Assembly (NCBI GenBank): GCA_018335195.1
Contig: JAGXKN010000021.1
Span: 1-57,028 of the forward strand
DNA: 57,028 bases
Source of the DNA: Desulfobacterales bacterium
Lineage (GTDB): Bacteria; Desulfobacterota; Desulfobacteria; Desulfobacterales; Desulfosalsimonadaceae
Reading direction: 5' to 3'
This document shows positions 35,906-47,891 of the stretch, one piece after another. The notes beneath the pieces are model-generated. The model was not told the origin of the DNA, did no database searches, and worked only from the letters and a program-made list of their open reading frames with translations. How positions within the stretch are numbered: position 1 is the stretch's first letter; every line of letters begins with the position of its first letter. The position numbers and the translations under genes were made by a program.

Positions 35906-36439
35906 GTGAAGGATTCTGAAACCATTGCGGACATCACTTATTATTTTGCCGCTCCGGATGAACTGCCGCAAGGGTATCTCAACAGAATATCCCGGCTGGT
36001 GGAATCAGGCGGTTCCGTGGCCCCGGAAAAGGTGCGCGAAAATCTTGCGCATGCCTTTCTGATCGTCTACGTCCTCGGCGACAGCGGCGAGATCGTGGCT
36101 TGTGCCGCCCTCAAGCAGCCCCGTGCACAGTTCATTGAAATGGTCCGGGAACAAACCGGCCTGGATCTTGACGGGTACCTGGAGCGGGGCTACAGCTCGG
36201 TGCGCCCGGAATACAGGGGCAAAGGGATTGCCAGCACCATGCTGGCCGGGCTGACGGCCCGGGTGGGCAAGCGCAAGTTATATTCAATTGTTGGGGAGGA
36301 CAATATCGGCGGCCAGAAAATTGCATTAAACAACAATACCCGGAAAGTAACGGTTTATGAAAGCGTGAAGACCGGGAAGAAGATGGGAATATGGATTCCG
36401 GAGTGGATGATCGACAATGCAAACGGGAGTACGCAATGA
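35906..36439 (+). CDS. GNAT-family N-acetyltransferase
   Basis: A 177-residue protein starting at a GTG preceded by AGAGGCGGG. Motif A is complete, SVRPEYRGKGIASTMLAGLTARV, which binds the acetyl-CoA pyrophosphate. The N-terminus predicts helix-strand elements of the fold. The stop overlaps the start of the next regulator (ATGA), so the pair is translationally coupled. The acceptor is unknown. Confidence 0.8.
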   Translation: MKDSETIADITYYFAAPDELPQGYLNRISRLVESGGSVAPEKVRENLAHAFLIVYVLGDSGEIVACAALKQPRAQFIEMVREQTGLDLDGYLERGYSSVRPEYRGKGIASTMLAGLTARVGKRKLYSIVGEDNIGGQKIALNNNTRKVTVYESVKTGKKMGIWIPEWMIDNANGSTQ

Positions 36440-37848
36440 GCGATGATCAAAAGAATCATGTATGGGACAGCAGGTTTGCCGGTCTGCTGCTGGATGCCAT
36501 GGGGGAAGGGGTTTTTACCCTTGATTCCCGGGGATGGATTACCTCCTGGAATCGCGCCATGGAACGGATATCCGGTTACCGGGCAGAGGAAGCCATCGGC
36601 CGGCCGTGTTCGATACTGAAGTTCAGCCGGTGTTTCGGCCGGGAGTGCCCGGCAGACATCACCGAGTGCCAGATCTACAAAAAGGGGATCGTGGCCCCTT
36701 CGGAATGCCGGCTTCAGCACAAAAACGGCCATCAGATATCGGTGATTAAAAATGCCAGGGTGCTAAAGGATGATAACGGCACGGTGATCGGCGTGGTGGA
36801 AACCCTGACCGATCTGACGGAATTGACCGCTGCCAGGCGCAAGGCCGAGGAAGCCGAGCAAAAGCTTTTGGAAAAGCATCAGTTCGGCAATATTATCGGC
36901 AAGAGTCATGCCATGCGGGAGGTTTTCCAGGCCATCCGGGTGGCGGCCAAAAGCGATGCCTCGGTGCTGCTCCAGGGGGAAAGCGGTACCGGCAAGGAGT
37001 TGGTGGCCGGCGCCATTCATTATAACAGCGAAAGAAGCAAGGGCCCCCTGGTGACAGTTAACTGCAGCGCGCTTTCCGAGTCGCTGCTGGAAAGCGAGCT
37101 TTTCGGTCACGTGCGCGGGGCATTCACCGGCGCGCACCGGGACCGGGTCGGTCGTTTCGAGGAAGCCCATGGTGGCACTATCCTGCTCGATGAAATCGGG
37201 GATGTCAGTCCCCTGATCCAGCTCAAGCTGCTCCGTGTGCTTCAGGAACATCAGATCGAGCGGGTGGGCGATACCACGCCGCGTCATATCGATCTGCGGG
37301 TGATTGCCGCCACGCACAAGGATCTCTACAGCTTGGTCCGCGAGGGCCTTTTCCGGGAAGACCTGTTTTACCGGCTCAAGGTGTTTCCGGTTTCCCTGCC
37401 CCCGCTGCGGGAGCGTCGGGAGGATATCCCCCTGCTGGTGCGGCATTTTGTTGACAATTTCAACCGGAAAACCGGCAAGTCGATTTCGGGATTGTCCCAT
37501 GACGCGATGCGCCTTTTGATGGACTACCAGTGGCCGGGCAACGTGCGCGAGCTTGAAAACGCAATTGAGCATGCGTTTGTATTGTGTGAAACTCAGTGGA
37601 TCGACGTGTTTGATCTTCCGGTGGAAATCCGCCGAATGGATCTGGCACCCTGGACCGGGAGGGCTTCGGCAGAGCCGGCCGCTGCTGCAGGCCGGAAAAA
37701 GCTCGACCGGGAATCCCTGCTGGCCCTTTTGCAGGAATGCGGGTGGAACAAGGCGGAAGTGGGGCGCCGTCTGGGAAAAAGCCGCACTTCTGTATGGAAG
37801 TACATGAAGCAGTACGGCATTCCGCTGGATTCGCCGGAAGCGTCTTGA
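36436..37848 (+). CDS. sigma-54-dependent transcriptional activator with Cys-rich PAS domain
   Basis: A 470-residue enhancer-binding protein. Residues ~10-125 are a PAS domain with four cysteines at 58, 66, 71 and 78 ([13 protein letters not shown]), a spacing suitable for metal, Fe-S or redox sensing. The AAA+ core has Walker A GESGTGKE at 181-188, the sigma-54-contact loop GAFTGA at 228-233, Walker B LLDEIGD at about 250-256 and an arginine-rich region [12 protein letters not shown]. Residues ~437-458 are a Fis-type HTH ([20 protein letters not shown]). A sigma-54 promoter match lies 160 bases after its stop, before the thioredoxin/cytochrome operon, which is its most likely target. Confidence 0.92.
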
Positions 37849-38056: not shown

Positions 38057-38374
38057 ATGCCGCTAAAGAGGCTGGAAACCGTTGAAGCTTTTGACAGGGC
38101 AACGAACGAGGGCGTCTGCCTGGTGGATTTTAATGCCCCTTGGTGCGGTCCCTGCAAGGCCCAGGCCCCGATTCTTGAAGAACTGGCTGATGCGTTTGCG
38201 CACCGGGCCGCGGTGGCCGAGGTGGATGTGTCTGCAAACCGGGAAATCGCGCAGCGATTCGGCATTCAGAGTATTCCGACCCTGGTGGTTTTCAAGGAAG
38301 GGCGGGAACAGGCACGCTTTGTCGGCCTGCAGCCCCGGGATGTTCTGGCGGGCGCCATCGAGGCGGCAGTATAG
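38057..38374 (+). CDS. thioredoxin
   Basis: A 105-residue thioredoxin with AAAGGAGGAG before the ATG. The active site is WCGPC at 29-33, preceded by VDFNAP, and the cis-proline segment IQSIPTLVVF follows. The length and motifs are those of a classical cytoplasmic thioredoxin; no signal peptide is seen. It reduces protein disulfides. It is the first gene after the sigma-54 promoter and lies 59 bases before the octaheme cytochrome, so it may serve the sulfur chemistry of this operon, although the cytochrome is exported and the thioredoxin is not. Confidence 0.92.
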   Translation: MPLKRLETVEAFDRATNEGVCLVDFNAPWCGPCKAQAPILEELADAFAHRAAVAEVDVSANREIAQRFGIQSIPTLVVFKEGREQARFVGLQPRDVLAGAIEAAV

Positions 38375-38433
38375 GACACACGAAGGTCCGGCCTGCATCA
38401 ATTGTGACTGAAGCGATGGAGAGGAGATTACGG

Positions 38434-39825
38434 ATGCGCGCAAAGTTGATCCGGGCAGTACTCATTGTCTTTATGCTGACGGGTTCTGCAGCGGCAGTTG
38501 ACCACGGCCAGTATTTGAAGGATTCATATCCGGACGGTCCGGCAGTGACACAAGATTGTCTGAAATGCCACCAGAAACAGGCCGCGGATTTCATGGAAAC
38601 CGCCCATTGGCTGTGGGAGGGCCCCTCACCGCATGTTTCAGGCCAGCCCGAAGACCTGCGCCTCGGCAAAAGAAACCTCATGAACAATTACTGAGTGGGC
38701 ATTGAATCCAATTGGTGCAGTTGCACCAAATGCCATGCCGGCTATGGCTGGGAGGATGATTCTTTTGATTTTACCGACAAGTCCGGGATCGACTGCCTGG
38801 TATGCCATGACACCACGGGCACGTATGCGGAAAACAAGGGGTCGTGCGGATATCCGGATGATTCCGTGGACCTTGCCGAGGCGGCAAAAAGCGTGGGCAA
38901 GCCGGACCGGGGCAACTGCGGTTCCTGTCACTGGTACGGGGGCGGCGGAAACAACGTAAAGCACGGGGACATGGGCAAGGCCCTGGCCGATCCCGCAAGG
39001 AAGCTTGATGTGCACATGGGGGGCCTGGGTTTTCAATGCCAGGACTGCCACACCGCCCGGAATCACAAAATCTCCGGGAAAAGCAACACTTCCTCTGTTA
39101 CCGAGGGGACGGTTTCGTGCACGGATTGCCATGAAAAAAGACCCCACAATGCATCTTCGCCCCTTCTCGACGAACTCAATGACCACTGTGATGCCCTTTC
39201 CTGCCAGGTCTGTCATATCCCGGAATACGCCAGGGCGGCAAAAACCACCACGCTCTGGGACTGGTCGAAAAGCGGCGAGGAGAACAAGGTCCTGGAGCAG
39301 ACCGACGACATGGAAAAGGTGCTGAGCCGGAAAAAGGGGCTGATGGTCCGGAAAAGCAACTTGACCCCGCATTATGCATGGTACAACGGCAAGCACAAGC
39401 GTTATCTCAATGGCGACCCGGTCAATCCGGACGGGGTAACGCAATTGAATCCGCCCCAGGGCGATATCACGGACCCGGAGGCAAAAATTGCCCCCTATAA
39501 GCTGATGCACGGGGTGGAACCCGCGGATGCCGAGCTTCATCACCTGATCGTGCCCAAGCTGTTCGGCGAGGGCGGATATTTTGAGACCTACGACTGGCAG
39601 CAGTCCGCGGAAAAGGGGATGGCCGCGGCCGGACTTGATTTTTCCGGGGAAATAACGTTTGTGAAAACCGTTATGCACTGGCGCTTGAATCATCAGGTGG
39701 CCCCCGCAAGGCAGGCCCTTTCATGTCTGGATTGTCACGGATCCGAAGGTGTGATGGATTTCCGGGCGTTGGGATATGACGGAGACCCGGCCGCGGTCGG
39801 CGGCAGACGGGCAGAAAGTGAATAA
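38434..39825 (+). CDS. octaheme c-type cytochrome (tetrathionate-reductase family) with in-frame TGA, probable selenocysteine 87
   Basis: A 463-residue exported protein if TGA at 38692-38694 is read as selenocysteine (residue 87). The ATG follows GAGGAG, and residues 1-22 form a signal peptide. It has eight CXXCH haem sites, CLKCH before the TGA and CTKCH, CLVCH, CGSCH, CQDCH, CTDCH, CQVCH and CLDCH after it, the count of octaheme tetrathionate reductases. The sequence around the TGA is LMNNY-U-VGIESNW, then the second haem and CHAGYGW. As I recall, family members have Cys here (NN[FY]C), one of the active-site residues in the Shewanella structure. Homology is continuous on both sides, and no ribosome-binding site precedes the GTG after the TGA. 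A plain nonsense mutation remains the alternative. Confidence 0.8.
38692..38729 (+). promoter_or_regulatory. TGA codon with SECIS-like stem-loop
   Basis: Downstream of the TGA, TTGGTGC (38712-38718) pairs perfectly with GCACCAA (38723-38729), leaving the loop AGTT. The loop begins 24 bases after the TGA and has G as its second base. Bacterial SECIS elements usually place the apical loop about 16-37 bases after the UGA, with a G among the first two loop bases, so this fits. E. coli fdhF has a closely similar upper stem. Confidence 0.65.
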
Positions 39826-39875: not shown

Positions 39876-40235
39876 ATGACCGACAATGTGGTAATTACCC
39901 TGGCATGCGGAACCAACAATCCCAACCGGGCCACCCGGGCCGTGCACCTGGCCACGGTTGCCCATAAGGAAGGAAAAAACGTGACCCTGTTTTTGCTCGA
40001 CGAGGCCGTGTATATCGCCAAGGAAGGGCTTGCCCTGCATCTGCGCGCAGCTACCGGCGACGTGGCCGATGACCTGCTCACCTACCTGCAGGCCCACGAA
40101 GTGCCGATCCTGGTTTGCACGCCGTGTGCCAAAGCCAGGCGGGTGGCGGAATCGGATCTGATCGAAGGCGCCAGGATGGCTGCGGCCAGTGAATTGATCC
40201 ATCTTTCATGCGACGCCGCGGTCATCAGCCTCTAG
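39876..40235 (+). CDS. DsrE-like sulfur-relay family protein
   Basis: A 119-residue cytoplasmic protein, with AAAAGGAGG before the ATG. The N-terminal strand and loop (VVITLACGTNNPNRATRAVHLATVAHKEGKNVTLFLLDEAV) and the later VPILVCTPCAKARRV, with two cysteines, match the DsrE/YchN fold, in which a conserved cysteine in this region can carry persulfide sulfur. It lies 51 bases after the cytochrome and is probably cotranscribed. Together with thioredoxin it suggests an operon for reducing or relaying sulfur (or selenium) species, but no partner DsrF/DsrH is present. Confidence 0.8.
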   Translation: MTDNVVITLACGTNNPNRATRAVHLATVAHKEGKNVTLFLLDEAVYIAKEGLALHLRAATGDVADDLLTYLQAHEVPILVCTPCAKARRVAESDLIEGARMAAASELIHLSCDAAVISL

Positions 40236-40272: not shown

Positions 40273-41148
40273 ATGGATATCGGAGTCATTAGCGTCCGGG
40301 GAAGCGATTATCACCCCAATCGGCGGCTGCTGGAAGCCGCCCGCAGGCGGGGGTGCCGTCTGGGACTGGTTGATCCCTACCGGACAGGGCCGGGGATCAT
40401 GCAGGGCGTGCTCGGCATGGGCGGCATGGAAAACACCGGGCCGCCCCGGGTGATTCTGCCGCGGCAGGGCGCCCAGATCGGGGATTCCAGCCTGACCGTG
40501 CTTGCGCAGTTCGCCGCCATGGGCATCGTCCTGGTCAATGATGTGCCGGCCATTTCCGTTGCCAGAAACAAGTTTTTGACGCTGCAGGCACTTGCCGGCA
40601 GCGGCCTGCCGGTGCCGGATACTTTTTTTGCCAATTCCGGGGCACTGGTATACAACGCAATCAATCGCCTGGGCGGCTACCCGGTGGTGGCAAAAAAACT
40701 CAGCGGCCGCCAGGGCGCGGAAGTGTTTTTGCTGACAAGCCGACAGGATGCCGAGCGGATCGTGGACGAGCACCTGGAGCCGGGACAGGGGGTCTTGCTT
40801 CAGGGCTTTATCGCGCCTGAAGGCCGCAGGGATCTGCGGGTGATGGTAATCGGCGGAAACGTCGCGGCGGCTGCGGAGTTTTTTCCGAAACCGGGGGATT
40901 TTCGGTCCAATTTTCATCTCGGCGGAAACATCCGGGGTGTTTCAATTTCCGGGGACATTGAAAAATTTGCTGCAGACAGCGCCCGGGCGGTGGGGCTCGA
41001 CATTGCGGGCGTGGACCTGGTGGTGGATGCGGCCGGGGCACCGTGGGTGATCGAGGTCAATTATTCCCCCGGGTTCAGGGGCCTGGAGGCGGCCACCGGA
41101 AAGGATGTTGCCGCGGAAATCATCGATTTTGCGATGTCGTACATTTGA
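40273..41148 (+). CDS. RimK-like ATP-grasp ligase
   Basis: A 291-residue ATP-grasp protein of the RimK group. Landmarks are LVNDVPAISVARNKFLTLQALAGSGLPVPDTFF, the nucleotide-binding PVVAKKLSGRQGAEVFL, QGFIAPEGRRDLRVMVIGG and the metal-binding IEVNYSPGFRGLE. Such enzymes form an amide bond between a carboxylate and an amine: glutamate tails on ribosomal S6, F420 or peptides, or lysine-biosynthesis intermediates. The three residues following SPG differ from classical RimK, so its substrate may be different. It begins a three-gene run with a PP-loop and a radical SAM protein; AAAACGCGTT lies before this and the next gene. Confidence 0.85.
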   Translation: MDIGVISVRGSDYHPNRRLLEAARRRGCRLGLVDPYRTGPGIMQGVLGMGGMENTGPPRVILPRQGAQIGDSSLTVLAQFAAMGIVLVNDVPAISVARNKFLTLQALAGSGLPVPDTFFANSGALVYNAINRLGGYPVVAKKLSGRQGAEVFLLTSRQDAERIVDEHLEPGQGVLLQGFIAPEGRRDLRVMVIGGNVAAAAEFFPKPGDFRSNFHLGGNIRGVSISGDIEKFAADSARAVGLDIAGVDLVVDAAGAPWVIEVNYSPGFRGLEAATGKDVAAEIIDFAMSYI

Positions 41149-41183: not shown

Positions 41184-42317
41184 ATGCGGATACGAAACCT
41201 GCAATTACAAGAAAATGAAGGCCGCACCCGGGCCGAGGCCACGGTGACCTGGGAGGACTGCGACCAGCCGGAAAAGCCGATTTTTATTGAAACCACCGCT
41301 CAACACGCCCGGGATCTGGCTGCCAATCCGCACGCGTTTCTGGTGGGATGCATCATTCCGGCCCTGCATTTCGGAGAAAAGCGCATCGCCGTCGAGGGCA
41401 CGGTCTGCCCGGAGCTGCTGGAAGGCCTGGAAACCGTGATGGCCCTGATGCGGGTGTGGACCGGTGGCGTTTATCAGCCCCTGCGCATCGAGCCGGGAAG
41501 GATTGCGGAAACAACCGGGCAAAGCGGGGCGCCGAAACACCGGGCCGGGATGCTGTATTCCGGCGGGATTGATTCCATAGCCGCGCTGCGGTTGAACATG
41601 CAGCACTATCCGCCGTCGCATCCGGGCCGGGTGCGGGACTGCTTTTTCGTGCACGGCTTTGACATCGGCGGGGTGGTGGCCCGGGGCATGAAGTATCACG
41701 TGTTTGACCGGGGTCTTGCGGCCATGGAAAAGGTCACGGACGGGGCCGGGGTCAACACGATTGCCGTGTATACAAATATCCGGCATCTGTGCGATGAAAG
41801 GGATCTCTGGCTGAACCGGTTTTTCGGGGCGGTGCTGGCGGCCGTGGCACACGGGTTTTCCTCCCGGCTGGATCTTTTCTACATTGCATCCTCCTATGAC
41901 CTGGAAAATCTGGCGCCGTGCGGCTCCCACCCCATGCTTGACCCGGAATACGGCAGTTTTGATCTGCACATCCGGCACCGGGACGCGGCATGGAGCCGGC
42001 TGGAAAAATTGAAAATCGTGGCCGATTGGGAGCCCGGGTTCCAGAATTTCCGGGTGTGCCTGGCCAATGTGGAAGACCGGCTCAACTGCGGCCGGTGCGA
42101 GAAGTGCGTGCGCACCATGACCGGGTTGGTGGCCATCAACGCCCTGCACCGGACCCGGGCCTTTGTGGAAGACGACGTGACACCGGAGATGTTTGACGCA
42201 TTTAAAATCAACATCCGCCACAGGGAGCCGTTTTACATCGAGCTGCTGCCGCTTCTGGAAAAACAGGGCCGAACCGACCTGGTACAAAAGATTCGAAAAA
42301 AACTTTCCGAGGAGTAA
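41184..42317 (+). CDS. QueC-like PP-loop ATPase of unknown substrate
   Basis: A 377-residue protein with a novel N-terminal ~115 residues and a PP-loop domain, whose ATP-pyrophosphatase motif is SGGIDS at 126-131. The C-terminal part holds C292-x9-C302-x2-C305-x2-C308 in VEDRLNCGRCEKCVRT, the four-cysteine zinc site familiar from QueC (7-cyano-7-deazaguanine synthase). QueC itself is about 220-230 residues and part of queuosine synthesis; QueD, QueE and QueF are absent here. Relatives elsewhere act on peptides, so the neighbouring ATP-grasp and radical SAM genes hint at a modified peptide or small molecule. Start uncertain: no clear ribosome-binding site. Confidence 0.7.
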   Translation: MRIRNLQLQENEGRTRAEATVTWEDCDQPEKPIFIETTAQHARDLAANPHAFLVGCIIPALHFGEKRIAVEGTVCPELLEGLETVMALMRVWTGGVYQPLRIEPGRIAETTGQSGAPKHRAGMLYSGGIDSIAALRLNMQHYPPSHPGRVRDCFFVHGFDIGGVVARGMKYHVFDRGLAAMEKVTDGAGVNTIAVYTNIRHLCDERDLWLNRFFGAVLAAVAHGFSSRLDLFYIASSYDLENLAPCGSHPMLDPEYGSFDLHIRHRDAAWSRLEKLKIVADWEPGFQNFRVCLANVEDRLNCGRCEKCVRTMTGLVAINALHRTRAFVEDDVTPEMFDAFKINIRHREPFYIELLPLLEKQGRTDLVQKIRKKLSEE

Positions 42318-42323
42318 GTAACC

Positions 42324-43580
42324 ATGCAGGATGTGTTGTTCATACAATTTTTGAGCCGCTCCCGGCGGGGCTACTGGGACCTGGCAAACGGGTTTTCCGA
42401 TGTGTGGGACCTGTGCAAAAGCCGCGGGGATTTTCACTGGGTGGTCCATGAGCCCGAAAGTGACAAATGGTACAAAGAAGAAACCTACACCAGCCGGGAA
42501 TTGCCAATCACCCGGGGCACGGTCTATGTGAGTGCCTCTTATATCAATCATTTGTACCAGGCTTATGTCTGGGCGCAGATGTACCCTGGGATTTCCTTTG
42601 TGGTCGGCGGTCCGGTGGCCGCTGCACGGGCCGGGTGTAGCAGTCAATGGGAGCCCCTGTATTTCGATATGCGCAAAAACGCCACCCTGCCGCAAAACTT
42701 GACAATTACCGGCAAAAGCGTGGAGCAGTTCTTCGGGGTTCCCGATTTTTCCGGCAAGTGGAAGCTGTCGATACCCGATCAAATTTTGCCGGCCGACGCG
42801 CCTGTCTATATTTCCTATACCCTGGACAACGGCTGTTACTGGGGCCGGTGCATTTACTGCAACATCAAGGAGGCTCCAAGGGAGCTGTTCCGGCAGCGCA
42901 GATACATGGGATTCGAGTTTTCCGAGCTCGAACATCCGGGCAGAAAAATCGTCCGGCTCAATACCGGTTCGATGACGCCCGGATATATCCGGGAGGTTTT
43001 GCCCGGCCTGCCTGTTCGCAGCGATCTGGAATACAGAACGTTCATGCGCTGCGCAAAGGCCGAAAACCGGGCCCTGGCCCGGGTGGTTGCGCAGGAAGAA
43101 ACCGTTTTGCCGGAACTGACAATGGGCATCGGCATAGAATTTCCCTCGGATCGCATGCTCGCATACATGGACAAGGGAATCACCTGTGCCGATATTCTGG
43201 AAACCCTGCGCATTTGCGGCAATGCAGGCATCCGGGTCAACGGCAACCTCATCCTGGGCTGGGGCAACCTGGTTGAACAGGACCTGCGGGAACTTGAACG
43301 GTTTTTCGATCAGATGCCGGAGCGCTCCATGACATCGCTGCAGCTTCGTTGGCTTTACGCCCATCCGCGCACGGTGATTCACGAGCAATACAGCGGCGAG
43401 CCGAGCTTCCTGGGGCCGTTTTACCTGGGCTTTCGGGCAAAAATCTCCGGGGCGCAGCAAAAGCGCAACGCAGAAGCCGTGCGGATAATTGAAGCATACA
43501 GCCGGAAAAAGCAGTTCCGGCTTGAGGGTCTGGGCAATGTCAAGCCGGCCCCGGGCGGAGGTGGAGAACATGCAGCCTGA
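42324..43580 (+). CDS. radical SAM protein with B12-binding-like N-terminus
   Basis: A 418-residue protein, 6 bases after the PP-loop gene. The N-terminus alternates strands and helices and contains YPGISFVVGGPVAAA, like the nucleotide-binding edge of cobalamin-binding domains. The radical SAM cluster site is C171-x4-C176-x2-C179 in NGCYWGRCIYCN, one residue longer than the canonical CxxxCxxC but found in B12-type families. The usual SAM-binding glycine patch may be represented by the MGIGIEFPSD and NGNLILGWGN segments. The family carries out difficult methylations or rearrangements. Given the ATP-grasp and QueC-like partners, it could be a maturase in an undescribed pathway. Its end overlaps the cyclase start by 11 bases. 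Confidence 0.8.
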   Translation: MQDVLFIQFLSRSRRGYWDLANGFSDVWDLCKSRGDFHWVVHEPESDKWYKEETYTSRELPITRGTVYVSASYINHLYQAYVWAQMYPGISFVVGGPVAAARAGCSSQWEPLYFDMRKNATLPQNLTITGKSVEQFFGVPDFSGKWKLSIPDQILPADAPVYISYTLDNGCYWGRCIYCNIKEAPRELFRQRRYMGFEFSELEHPGRKIVRLNTGSMTPGYIREVLPGLPVRSDLEYRTFMRCAKAENRALARVVAQEETVLPELTMGIGIEFPSDRMLAYMDKGITCADILETLRICGNAGIRVNGNLILGWGNLVEQDLRELERFFDQMPERSMTSLQLRWLYAHPRTVIHEQYSGEPSFLGPFYLGFRAKISGAQQKRNAEAVRIIEAYSRKKQFRLEGLGNVKPAPGGGGEHAA

Positions 43581-45168: not shown

Positions 45169-46867
45169 CAGTCTGAAAAAGCGCCTGGCGGTTTTTTTGA
45201 TCATCCCGGTGGCACTGCTTCTTGCAGCAGCGGGAACTGCCGGATTTATATATGCCAGAAGCATGCTTCTTGATCAGTGGCAGGAAGGCGCAATTCTCAA
45301 GCTCGAGCGCGCGGCACATTATATGGATATGCGTTTGGGGCGACCGATTGACTGGATACAGATGTTCCATGCAACCGGGCCAAGAAGCGACGATCCGGCA
45401 GCCCGGGAGTTTATTTTAAGCCGGATCGAGGGACTTGACGGGGTGGCGGAGGTGGAGCTGCAATGGGCGGACAATCCCCGCCGGCCGGATCGCGCCGGAA
45501 TGCACGCGGATCAAATGAGCCGGAAACTGCGGATGCGTTTTCATCATGCCGAGATTTCCAGGGTCACGGGGCCGCGATACGATGCCGGCAAAAATGCGGA
45601 AACCGTGACCCTGGTCTCGGAACTCAGAAACGAAGACGGCGGTCTGGTGGGCAGGCTGTCGGTGTCGGTGCGCTTTGATCATCTCATGCAGGATATCAAG
45701 GAACTGGGATGGTGGCAGAGCAATCAGGTCTGCCTGGTGGACGAAAGCGGACAATACCTGGCGCACAGCGCCGCCATGGAGAAGCGAGAGCAGCTCGGGG
45801 CAACCGGCGATCCCATGGAGACGGCCCTGCTTGAAAAAATGCAGGAATCGCCTTTTGGCACCCACCTGGGATCCGGTCATCCGCCCCACATGGTGGGCGG
45901 TTTTTACCGCCTCGAGCGCGCCCCGTGGGTGCTTGTCATGTATGCGCCGGGACGGGAAATCCTGGCGCCGATCATTGAATTCCGGTTTTATTATGCTGTT
46001 GCCGCAGGGATTTGCATCGCCTTTACGCTGCTGCTCATCCAGCTTGTCGGCGGCCGGCTGGTTCGCCAGGTCGGCAGGATCTCCCGGGCGGTCAGGGAGG
46101 TGGCGGACGGGAAATATCCCGAAAGGCTCCCCGAAACCTCGGCCGATGAAATCGGGCAGCTTGAGACCGGTTTCAACGAGATGGTCGAGGGGCTTCGGGA
46201 GCGGGATTTTATCCGGGAGACCTTTGGCCGTTACGTGGACCGGGAGGTGGCCCATGAGCTCATGAAGCGTCCCGAAGCCCGCCGGCTGGGGGGCGAAAAA
46301 CGCGAGGTGGTCATTTTAATGTCGGATATCCGGGGATTTACCGCTGTTTCCGAATCCTTGAGCCCGGAGGCCACAATTCGGTTGTTAAATGATTACTTTT
46401 CGCACATGATCGAGGTGATCCGGCAATATAAGGGCATTATCGTGGATTTCTACGGAGACGGCGTACTGGTGTTTTTTGATCCCCATGAAAGTGACATCGA
46501 GCCGGCGGCAGCGCGCGCAGTGCAATGCAGCCTGGAAATGCAGCGCACCATGAGTCCTTTTAACCGGCATCTCAGGCAGCAGGGACTGCCGGAGATGCAA
46601 ACCGGCATAGGGCTTCATGCCGGGCAGGTGGTGGTTGGAAACATCGGGTCATCGACAAGGGCCAAGTACGGGATCGTGGGCCTGGCGGTAAACATGACCC
46701 AGCGCATCCAGGCCGAGGCAGAAGGCGGCGGAATCGTGATATCCGAGCCGGTCTACAACCTGCTGGCCGGGAAGCTGAGCGTTGCAACCCCCTTTTCCCT
46801 CCAGCTGAAAGGGGTGCGGGAGAAAGCCACGGTTTATCCGCTCAAGGGTTTTGATGCCTCCATATAA
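45161..46867 (+). CDS. second class III cyclase with periplasmic sensor, HAMP and catalytic domains
   Basis: A 568-residue protein. TM1 lies around residues 8-32, a periplasmic sensor (cache-like by size) extends to about 265, TM2 follows (AVAAGICIAFTLLLIQLVGG), then HAMP (GRISRAVREVADGKYPERLPETSADEIGQLETGF) and a cyclase domain. Metal aspartates are in VILMSDIRGFT and VDFYGDGVLVFF, and the Asn/Arg pair is in VGLAVNMTQRI. Its start lies inside the end of the preceding cyclase gene and no ribosome-binding site is evident, which implies coupling. Two different sensors on one transcript could integrate signals into one nucleotide pool. Confidence 0.88.
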   Translation: MINSLKKRLAVFLIIPVALLLAAAGTAGFIYARSMLLDQWQEGAILKLERAAHYMDMRLGRPIDWIQMFHATGPRSDDPAAREFILSRIEGLDGVAEVELQWADNPRRPDRAGMHADQMSRKLRMRFHHAEISRVTGPRYDAGKNAETVTLVSELRNEDGGLVGRLSVSVRFDHLMQDIKELGWWQSNQVCLVDESGQYLAHSAAMEKREQLGATGDPMETALLEKMQESPFGTHLGSGHPPHMVGGFYRLERAPWVLVMYAPGREILAPIIEFRFYYAVAAGICIAFTLLLIQLVGGRLVRQVGRISRAVREVADGKYPERLPETSADEIGQLETGFNEMVEGLRERDFIRETFGRYVDREVAHELMKRPEARRLGGEKREVVILMSDIRGFTAVSESLSPEATIRLLNDYFSHMIEVIRQYKGIIVDFYGDGVLVFFDPHESDIEPAAARAVQCSLEMQRTMSPFNRHLRQQGLPEMQTGIGLHAGQVVVGNIGSSTRAKYGIVGLAVNMTQRIQAEAEGGGIVISEPVYNLLAGKLSVATPFSLQLKGVREKATVYPLKGFDASI

Positions 46868-46886
46868 ATTGGAAAGCAGGGGAAAA

Positions 46887-47891
46887 ATGCGGATGTTTTT
46901 GAAGCAGCACCTTCACTATTTTATCGTTTGCGTACTTCTGGCCGGGCTTGTAAACGTATATTTCCTGGGCGGATTCAATACGCCGAAAGCGTATTTGATT
47001 TTTATTGTCGTGGCTTTCGTGATTTTTCCCGTAATGATTAACACGGATTTCTGGGAGATATTTGAGCACTTCAGAGAGCCCAGGCCCGTGTTCTGCAGCA
47101 TTGTCCTGAATTTTCTGATTTCCCCTGCTATTGCTTTTGGGGCAGGCTCCTTGTTTTTGAGGGATCAGCCGCTGCTGTTTACAGGGCTTATCCTCATTTC
47201 CCTTATCCCCACCAGTTCCATGAGCATGGCCTGGACATCGTTTTCAAATGCAAATCTCGCCACCGCACTTTATCTTACGCCGCTGAATATTCTTTTTGCC
47301 GCTTTTATCGGATTGCCCCTGATATTTCCGCTCCTTGCAGACCAGTTCATTGAAATCAACACCTTCATGATTGTGCGAAACATCATTATGGTATTTTTTA
47401 TCCCCCTGATAATCGGAGGATTTTTAAGAAAACTGATCATAAAGTTCAAGGGGAATGCCTTTTTTTCGTCAAAAATCCAGCCAAACATCGGCATGGTATC
47501 CGGGGCGGGGCTTCTGGTTTTGATTTTCCTTGTCATGTCCCAGGAAAGAAACGCCATGCTTCTGGAAAACTACAGGGTCCTGGTTTTTGCGGTGATTCCC
47601 GTGATCCTATATTATGCCTTGATGTATGCGGCTTCGGTTTTCTGGATGAAGCAGCTTGTCAGCAGGGAGGTGATTGACAGCAAAAAGGCACTGGTGCTGG
47701 TTTATACCTCTGTGGCAAGGCATATCAACATTGCCATTGCCATTGCACTTTCTTCGTTTACAGTGGACCAGGGGGCCACGGTGATGTTTGTCCTAATCAT
47801 TGCCTACTTGGTCCAGGTCCCGGGGCTTGCCTTTTTTGCGCAGAAATTCGGTAAGAATTTTATCATGAAAACCACAAATTCCCCGTTATGA
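46887..47891 (+). CDS. BASS/ACR3-superfamily transporter
   Basis: A 334-residue membrane protein with about nine to ten helices. The ATG at 46887 (CAGGGG upstream) begins MRMFLKQHLHYFIVCVLLAG. The LIPTSSMSMAWTSFSNANLATALYL segment resembles the substrate region of the bile-acid:sodium symporter (BASS)/arsenite ACR3 superfamily. The family exports arsenite or imports organic anions; no arsenic genes are nearby. It lies 19 bases after the second cyclase. Its stop overlaps the convergent minus-strand gene by 6 bases. Confidence 0.75.
   Translation: MRMFLKQHLHYFIVCVLLAGLVNVYFLGGFNTPKAYLIFIVVAFVIFPVMINTDFWEIFEHFREPRPVFCSIVLNFLISPAIAFGAGSLFLRDQPLLFTGLILISLIPTSSMSMAWTSFSNANLATALYLTPLNILFAAFIGLPLIFPLLADQFIEINTFMIVRNIIMVFFIPLIIGGFLRKLIIKFKGNAFFSSKIQPNIGMVSGAGLLVLIFLVMSQERNAMLLENYRVLVFAVIPVILYYALMYAASVFWMKQLVSREVIDSKKALVLVYTSVARHINIAIAIALSSFTVDQGATVMFVLIIAYLVQVPGLAFFAQKFGKNFIMKTTNSPL

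Follow-up and report, generated by a model that had tools for sequence, protein, structure and literature searches.

The stretch of DNA analysed here (the window; 57,028 nucleotides of contig JAGXKN010000021.1 from a Desulfobacterales bacterium) contains a frame of 463 codons at positions 38434-39825 of the + strand, the sole interruption of which is a TGA at 38692-38694, codon 87. The question raised by this locus was whether that codon ends a short product or is read as selenocysteine within a multihaem enzyme. It was concluded, with a probability of about 0.93, that the product of the gene would be an OTR-family octaheme cytochrome c, located in the periplasm, with selenocysteine in place of the conserved cysteine of the NN[FY]C motif. 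The host is a bacterium related to sulfate reducers.

The ribosome-binding site AGGAG (38422-38426, + strand) was located 7 nt 5' of the ATG at 38434, and a signal-peptide-like N-terminal segment (residues 1-22, 38434-38499) was recognised by eye in the translation. When the TGA was translated as U, a predicted 463-residue selenoprotein was obtained with eight CXXCH haem motifs on the same strand, seven of them downstream of the TGA: CLKCH (residues 42-46, 38557-38571), CTKCH (97-101, 38722-38736), CLVCH (121-125, 38794-38808), CGSCH (162-166, 38917-38931), CQDCH (202-206, 39037-39051), CTDCH (229-233, 39118-39132), CQVCH (257-261, 39202-39216) and CLDCH (431-435, 39724-39738). The second motif belongs to the catalytic haem by homology. 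The Cys and His columns of all eight motifs were invariant in an alignment of 21 sequences (A1), and so was Lys176 of the segment VKHGD (38959-38961), the putative distal ligand of haem 2. An earlier note on this DNA had described the octaheme frame, its eight motifs, ribosome-binding site, signal peptide and lone TGA; all of these were recovered, the signal-like N-terminus by eye.

The read-through protein scored 516.9 bits against the TIGR04315 profile ('tetrathionate reductase family octaheme c-type cytochrome'; cut-off 375), with positions 2-440 of 440 aligned, and its membership of the OTR (TIGR04315) family is practically beyond doubt. The sole solved relative found by sequence at E values up to 1 was the Shewanella oneidensis OTR (1SP3, E 3e-123). 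This was also the single structure matched at E <0.001 by a predicted model in which Cys was used in place of Sec (TM 0.70, E 1e-37). The two proteins share eight CXXCH motifs, similarity over the whole length, the fold and the NN[FY] that precedes the Cys column, and K153 of 1SP3 is aligned with K176 of the window protein. Lys153 is presumably the distal ligand of haem 2 in 1SP3, and its number fits the count along the alignment. They differ in that Cys64 and Pro72 of 1SP3 (numbers counted from the alignment) correspond to Sec87 and Cys95 here. The predicted model was weak (mean pLDDT 65.6, and below 50 at residues 85-94, around residue 87) and too poor at that residue for geometry, thus the placement of the active site rests on homology.

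Further, the codon aligned with Cys64 of the NNFC motif was compared across the family. In a first scan of one genome per species, 39 loci were recorded, with TGA in 5 and Cys in 34. The TIGR04315 profile was then searched at three ranks, the family (36 genomes), the order (291) and the phylum (395), and matches above the cut-off were present in at least 154 of the 291 sampled genomes of the order. All TGA genes among the matches listed, a lower bound on their true number, and a subset of the Cys genes were taken; removal of duplicates reduced 181 genes to 168, and a partial copy of the L105 gene (L189_4761) was dropped before the column was counted. Among the 167 remaining genes the column was occupied by Cys in 106, by TGA in 59, by Ala in one and by a gap in one; with 1SP3 included (168 rows) the counts were 107 Cys, 59 TGA, one Ala and one gap. 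The Ala belongs to a distant relative below the family cut-off (L178, G393:C4). The TGA genes were spread over 58 genomes, the window's genome having two of them (C93 and C10). Every internal stop among the matches listed was a single TGA, and no interruption by TAA or TAG was recorded among them; one TAA proved to be the terminal stop of L110, reached by an overrun of the alignment. Cys at the C64 column is common in the TIGR04315 family and is not known as a defining rule for it; the window gene has a TGA codon instead, and as 59 members have this codon, it marks a within-family variant and gives no ground for exclusion.

A predicted SECIS hairpin was located downstream of the TGA, at 38712-38729 of the + strand, with arms TTGGTGC (38712-38718) and GCACCAA (38723-38729) and the loop AGTT (38719-38722). 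In the RNA it forms 7 bp with an AGUU loop (G as the second base) that begins 24 nt downstream of the UGA, and its energy is -10.8 kcal/mol. The bSECIS model, as given in the accessible text of PMC13188914, includes a loop of 3-9 nt with G in its first two positions, a stem of 4-16 bp, a spacing of 16-37 nt and an MFE of at most -7.5 kcal/mol. The window hairpin fits this model, as do 56 of the 59 TGA genes in all; the exceptions, L093, L094 and L095, have hairpins that fall short of the -7.5 kcal/mol limit. The earlier note had expected homologues with Cys at the TGA column and had reported a perfect 7-bp hairpin with a four-base loop at a distance typical of bacterial SECIS elements, and each of these expectations was borne out.

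One of two hairpins was present at a fixed spacing in all 59 TGA genes. In type 1 (40 genes, the window's included) the core is GGUGC-AG[GU]U-GCACC or a sequence close to it, and the loop begins 24 nt downstream of the UGA; in type 2 (19 genes) the sequence is GCAACGA-GGC-UCGUUGC and the loop begins 20 nt downstream. The type-2 17-mer was identical in 19/19 Sec genes, and its codons AAC, GAG, GCT, CGT and TGC were each fixed in all 19, while synonyms were used in the Cys genes. Type-1 cores were found in none of the 106 Cys genes, and the type-2 17-mer in one (L158, G284:C622). The latter carries TGT at the TGA column together with the exact 17-mer, and it is likely a Sec-to-Cys reversion with a fossil SECIS.

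The fixed sequence and position of the hairpins, rather than their energy, were taken as the evidence. Among 648 sampled TGAs of the window, 37% reached -7.5 kcal/mol and 13% reached -10.8 kcal/mol. Synonymous reshuffles matched the observed energy in 2/60 cases for the window gene, 633/3540 for all Sec genes and 2818/6360 for the Cys genes; since the observed energy was often equalled, energy by itself was not decisive and was rejected as the main evidence. The window hairpin nevertheless exceeds chance: of 1707 TGA trinucleotides counted over the two strands of the window, 8, among them the one at 38692-38694, were followed by a perfect Watson-Crick stem of at least 7 bp (loop of 3-5 nt with G in its first two positions, spacing of 16-37 nt). 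A second copy of GGTGCAGGTGCACC in the genome (contig C64, L199) had no TGA in the preceding 35 nt and was taken as chance.

The selenocysteine machinery, for which the earlier note had suggested a search, was complete in the window's genome, where selA, selB, selD and a tRNA-Sec (selC; 76.6 bits) were found. The selD gene itself (G000:C87:32529-33449) contains one in-frame TGA and probably encodes a selenoprotein as well. Of the 58 genomes that carry a TGA copy, 50 had a recognisable tRNA-Sec and 51 SelA; G015, which is 87% complete, was the sole genome in which neither was found. The tRNA-Sec was also recorded in 33 of 36 genomes without a TGA copy among the matches listed, three of which (G336, G393 and G592) have solely matches below the family cut-off. 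The machinery is thus near-universal even where no TGA copy was among the matches listed, so it permits selenocysteine insertion and does not discriminate; its co-occurrence was rejected as a discriminator.

Two other readings of the codon were weighed. A changed code in which TGA specifies Trp is unlikely, given that homologues have Cys at this place and that both the Sec machinery and a SECIS are present. If the TGA were an ordinary stop, the locus would be a decayed pseudogene or would yield a monohaem peptide of 86 residues, whether or not translation restarted at the GTG at 38695. Translation table 11 does read TGA as a stop, and the listing of open reading frames splits the gene there. 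Against this stand the occurrence of TGA at the same codon in 59 genes, with no TAA or TAG interruption among the matches listed, the frozen hairpins, and the cost of such a stop, which would remove seven of the eight haems and Lys176. Moreover, the part of the protein after the TGA is under purifying selection. Over 376 codons downstream of it, dN/dS was 0.12 in the comparison with a relative of 93% identity and 0.16 in that with a relative of 68% identity, values of 0.000 being left out as saturated comparisons. The pseudogene and the ordinary stop were ruled out by the recurrence of TGA at one codon and by the downstream selection, and only a very slight chance is left to them. Insertion of selenocysteine at UGA 38692-38694 is accordingly graded as predicted with near certainty, and the replacement of Cys by Sec proposed in the earlier note is backed by the Cys column, the fit to the bSECIS model and the Sec machinery.

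It was also observed that the hairpins share codons with the haem motif that follows. The 3' arm of type 1 falls within the coding sequence of the second CXXCH, which is that of the catalytic haem, and the type-2 3' arm ends within the first Cys codon of the same motif. In type 1 the codon eight residues after the Sec (U+8; TGC at 38716-38718, Cys95 in the window protein) lies in the 5' arm and pairs with the GCA of the following TGC-ACC, for which only TGC or TGT is possible, both of them Cys codons. Cys was indeed present at U+8, always as TGC, in 40/40 type-1 genes (40/59 Sec genes), and in none of the 105 scorable Cys rows (107 rows are tagged Cys, two of them without the motif there); in the 19 type-2 genes the residue is Ala.

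An alternative was considered in which Cys95 is a functional partner of Sec87, so that a U-x7-C selenenylsulfide pair beside the catalytic haem would allow a chemistry unlike that of the Cys-OTRs. The strict association of this Cys with type-1 Sec genes is in line with it, as is its occurrence in two clades separated by the tree and its retention in L093-L095 despite the weakened hairpin. The codon, however, lies within the SECIS stem, and the U+8 Cys of all 40 type-1 genes can be explained by the RNA alone because the pairing admits only Cys codons; the Ala of the type-2 genes also speaks against such a partnership. The U-x7-C pattern was therefore withdrawn as proof of a redox pair, and a functional role of Cys95 is regarded as doubtful.

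The distribution of the two states was followed on a maximum-likelihood tree that was computed quickly from 153 rows, with the hairpin columns excluded. L086 and L178 and then the short L085, L039 and L038 were left out, and the removal of rows at least 90% identical reduced 163 rows to 153. At least 9 changes of the Sec/Cys label were counted, 6 of which were forced by well-supported branches; the count was 8 without two long-branched rows, and a thinned tree of 58 rows gave 5. As judged from these sequences, Sec and Cys swap repeatedly on the tree, and one pair of genes in the two states (L101 and L181) is 86% identical. Type 1 fell into two clades, A, which contains the window gene, and B, from other families of the phylum. 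A tree in which the two were held together was rejected with p-AU 2.8e-9 (58 rows, a simple model and a group named after the tree had been seen). The two type-1 clades may have arisen by convergence, by the transfer of a short stretch of sequence, or from an ancient Sec state followed by many losses. A broader proposal is that the Sec-OTRs are an enzyme form that evolved recurrently, with a Sec87-Cys95 selenenylsulfide pair beside the Lys-ligated catalytic haem, a chemistry that the Cys-OTRs would lack, and with a SECIS that shares its letters with the codons of the haem motif; two clades of the phylum would have gained this solution independently, by a new origin or through the movement of a short segment. 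This proposal is regarded as improbable.

The function is most likely a periplasmic reduction of oxidised sulfur compounds, with Sec beside the Lys-ligated haem 2. According to the available text of PMC11024163, haem 2 of OTR is catalytic and is ligated by a conserved Lys, and the Shewanella enzyme acts on tetrathionate, nitrite and hydroxylamine. In the proposed scheme, the UGA at codon 87 would be decoded by SelB and Sec-tRNA, haems would be attached at all eight sites, and Sec87 would adjoin the Lys176-ligated haem 2. The Sec87 selenolate would attack the oxidised substrate there, most likely at the S-S bond of a polythionate or persulfide, and the resulting selenyl-sulfide adduct would be reduced with electrons from the haem chain. 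The role of Sec87 as a nucleophile was inferred by analogy with TsdA (thiosulfate dehydrogenase / tetrathionate reductase), for which a cysteine S-thiosulfonate at the active-site haem is described in the part of PMC4423706 that was available. The S-S chemistry of TsdA is related, but TsdA is a dihaem protein of another family and its Cys ligates the haem.

A sulfur compound is slightly favoured as the substrate of the window enzyme. A role chiefly as a reductase of nitrite and hydroxylamine or of selenium oxyanions was regarded as the less probable option. In its favour, nitrite and hydroxylamine are also reduced by the Shewanella OTR (PMC11024163, text available in part), nitrite is a substrate of a relative from the Beggiatoaceae, which reduces tetrathionate faster (PMC6449678, likewise in part), and for ExtKL, another multihaem cytochrome selenoprotein, a part in selenite reduction has been suggested in the accessible sections of PMC5877670. 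This option is opposed by the gene neighbourhood of clade A, which includes a thioredoxin, a DsrE protein and a flavoprotein resembling CoA-disulfide reductase; moreover, no nitrogen-respiration gene was recognised among the 7 neighbours per window scan and 6 cluster representatives.

Upstream of the OTR gene and on the same + strand lies a PAS / sigma-54-dependent activator (36391-37848), a relative of which was found in the fetched region of 12/16 other clade-A loci and of 3/18 other loci. A thioredoxin with the motif WCGPCK (38057-38374, + strand) is directly upstream; relatives were recorded in 6/16 other clade-A loci and 0/18 other loci, directly upstream of the OTR gene in four of the former, three of them of the window's genus. 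No export signal was seen in this thioredoxin by eye, so it is unlikely to be a direct partner of a periplasmic enzyme. Directly downstream is a DsrE/DsrF-like protein (39876-40235, + strand), with relatives in 5/16 other clade-A loci and 0/18 other loci, adjacent to the OTR gene in three, all of the window's genus. The tight order thioredoxin-OTR-DsrE was seen only in that genus. The CoA-disulfide-reductase-like flavoprotein was found in five clade-A loci, and CoA-disulfide reductase models were the best matches of the four flavoproteins scanned, all below the cut-offs. The reading as a sulfur-compound reductase is thus the one to which the clade-A neighbours point, without naming a substrate.

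The window's genome contains three OTR paralogues: the type-1 Sec gene of the window (C93), a type-2 Sec gene (L091, G000:C10:107148-108497) and a Cys gene (L090, G000:C36:13439-14761). The last two are both followed by a cytochrome b561 gene. Such a gene was found within 700 nt after the OTR gene in 23/40 type-1 genes, all of clade B, in 10/19 type-2 genes (2 unjudgeable) and in 54/106 Cys genes (6 unjudgeable), and in 0/17 clade-A genes. As the window copy, in contrast to its two paralogues in the genome, has no b561 gene directly behind it, this OTR is probably fed with electrons by another periplasmic donor.

In print, TIGR04315 is already known as a selenoprotein family, without analysis in the portions of the source available. 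A review of May 2026 (PMC13188914) tabulates it with one Sec, as 'GenBank annotated', with the accession WP_331457571.1 and '-' as the motif. This entry agrees with the window protein in family and in the single Sec; it differs in being a bare table row with no motif, and the word 'octaheme' appears once in that review. The same tables, as far as available, hold ExtKL (NF040886) and the GSU2204 family (NF041027), which are CXXCH-containing selenoproteins like the window protein but belong to other protein families; ExtKL is a cytochrome-like selenoprotein for which the accessible text of PMC5877670 proposes a role in selenite reduction. The terms octaheme, heme and tetrathionate are absent from the text of a 2022 review (PMC9312934). 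Within the literature on octaheme and multiheme selenoproteins that was reached, with preprints and most subscription papers lying outside it, PMC13188914 was the only source, in its available text, that named TIGR04315 as such, and no analysis of the SECIS, distribution or evolution of this family was found there. The earlier note had named no characterised selenoprotein of this type; this needs to be qualified, as the family has been tabulated as a selenoprotein, and the substrates that it proposed (oxyanions of sulfur, nitrogen or selenium) are candidates.

Standard gene finding splits the Sec-OTR genes at the UGA, so that a multihaem enzyme can be mis-annotated. The OTR family may be viewed as a natural experiment on the benefit of Sec relative to Cys beside a haem, because it offers three paralogues in one genome, repeated Sec/Cys switches, the 86%-identical pair and a Cys gene that bears a SECIS.

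Some further observations concern other members and the surroundings of the gene. One clade of type-2 Sec-OTRs (L096, L147, L110, L112-L116 and L145, of which L112 is cut by a contig end) consists mostly of longer frames, and the two members scanned, L096 and L147, have an extra N-terminal class III cytochrome c domain. After the DsrE gene of the window follow a RimK-like ATP-grasp protein (40273-41148), a protein with no Pfam or NCBIfam match (41184-42317) and a weakly radical-SAM-like protein (42324-43580), a gene order that is also kept in L143. A transporter at 46851-47891 weakly resembled both ACR3 arsenite efflux proteins and bile acid symporters, with scores below both cut-offs.
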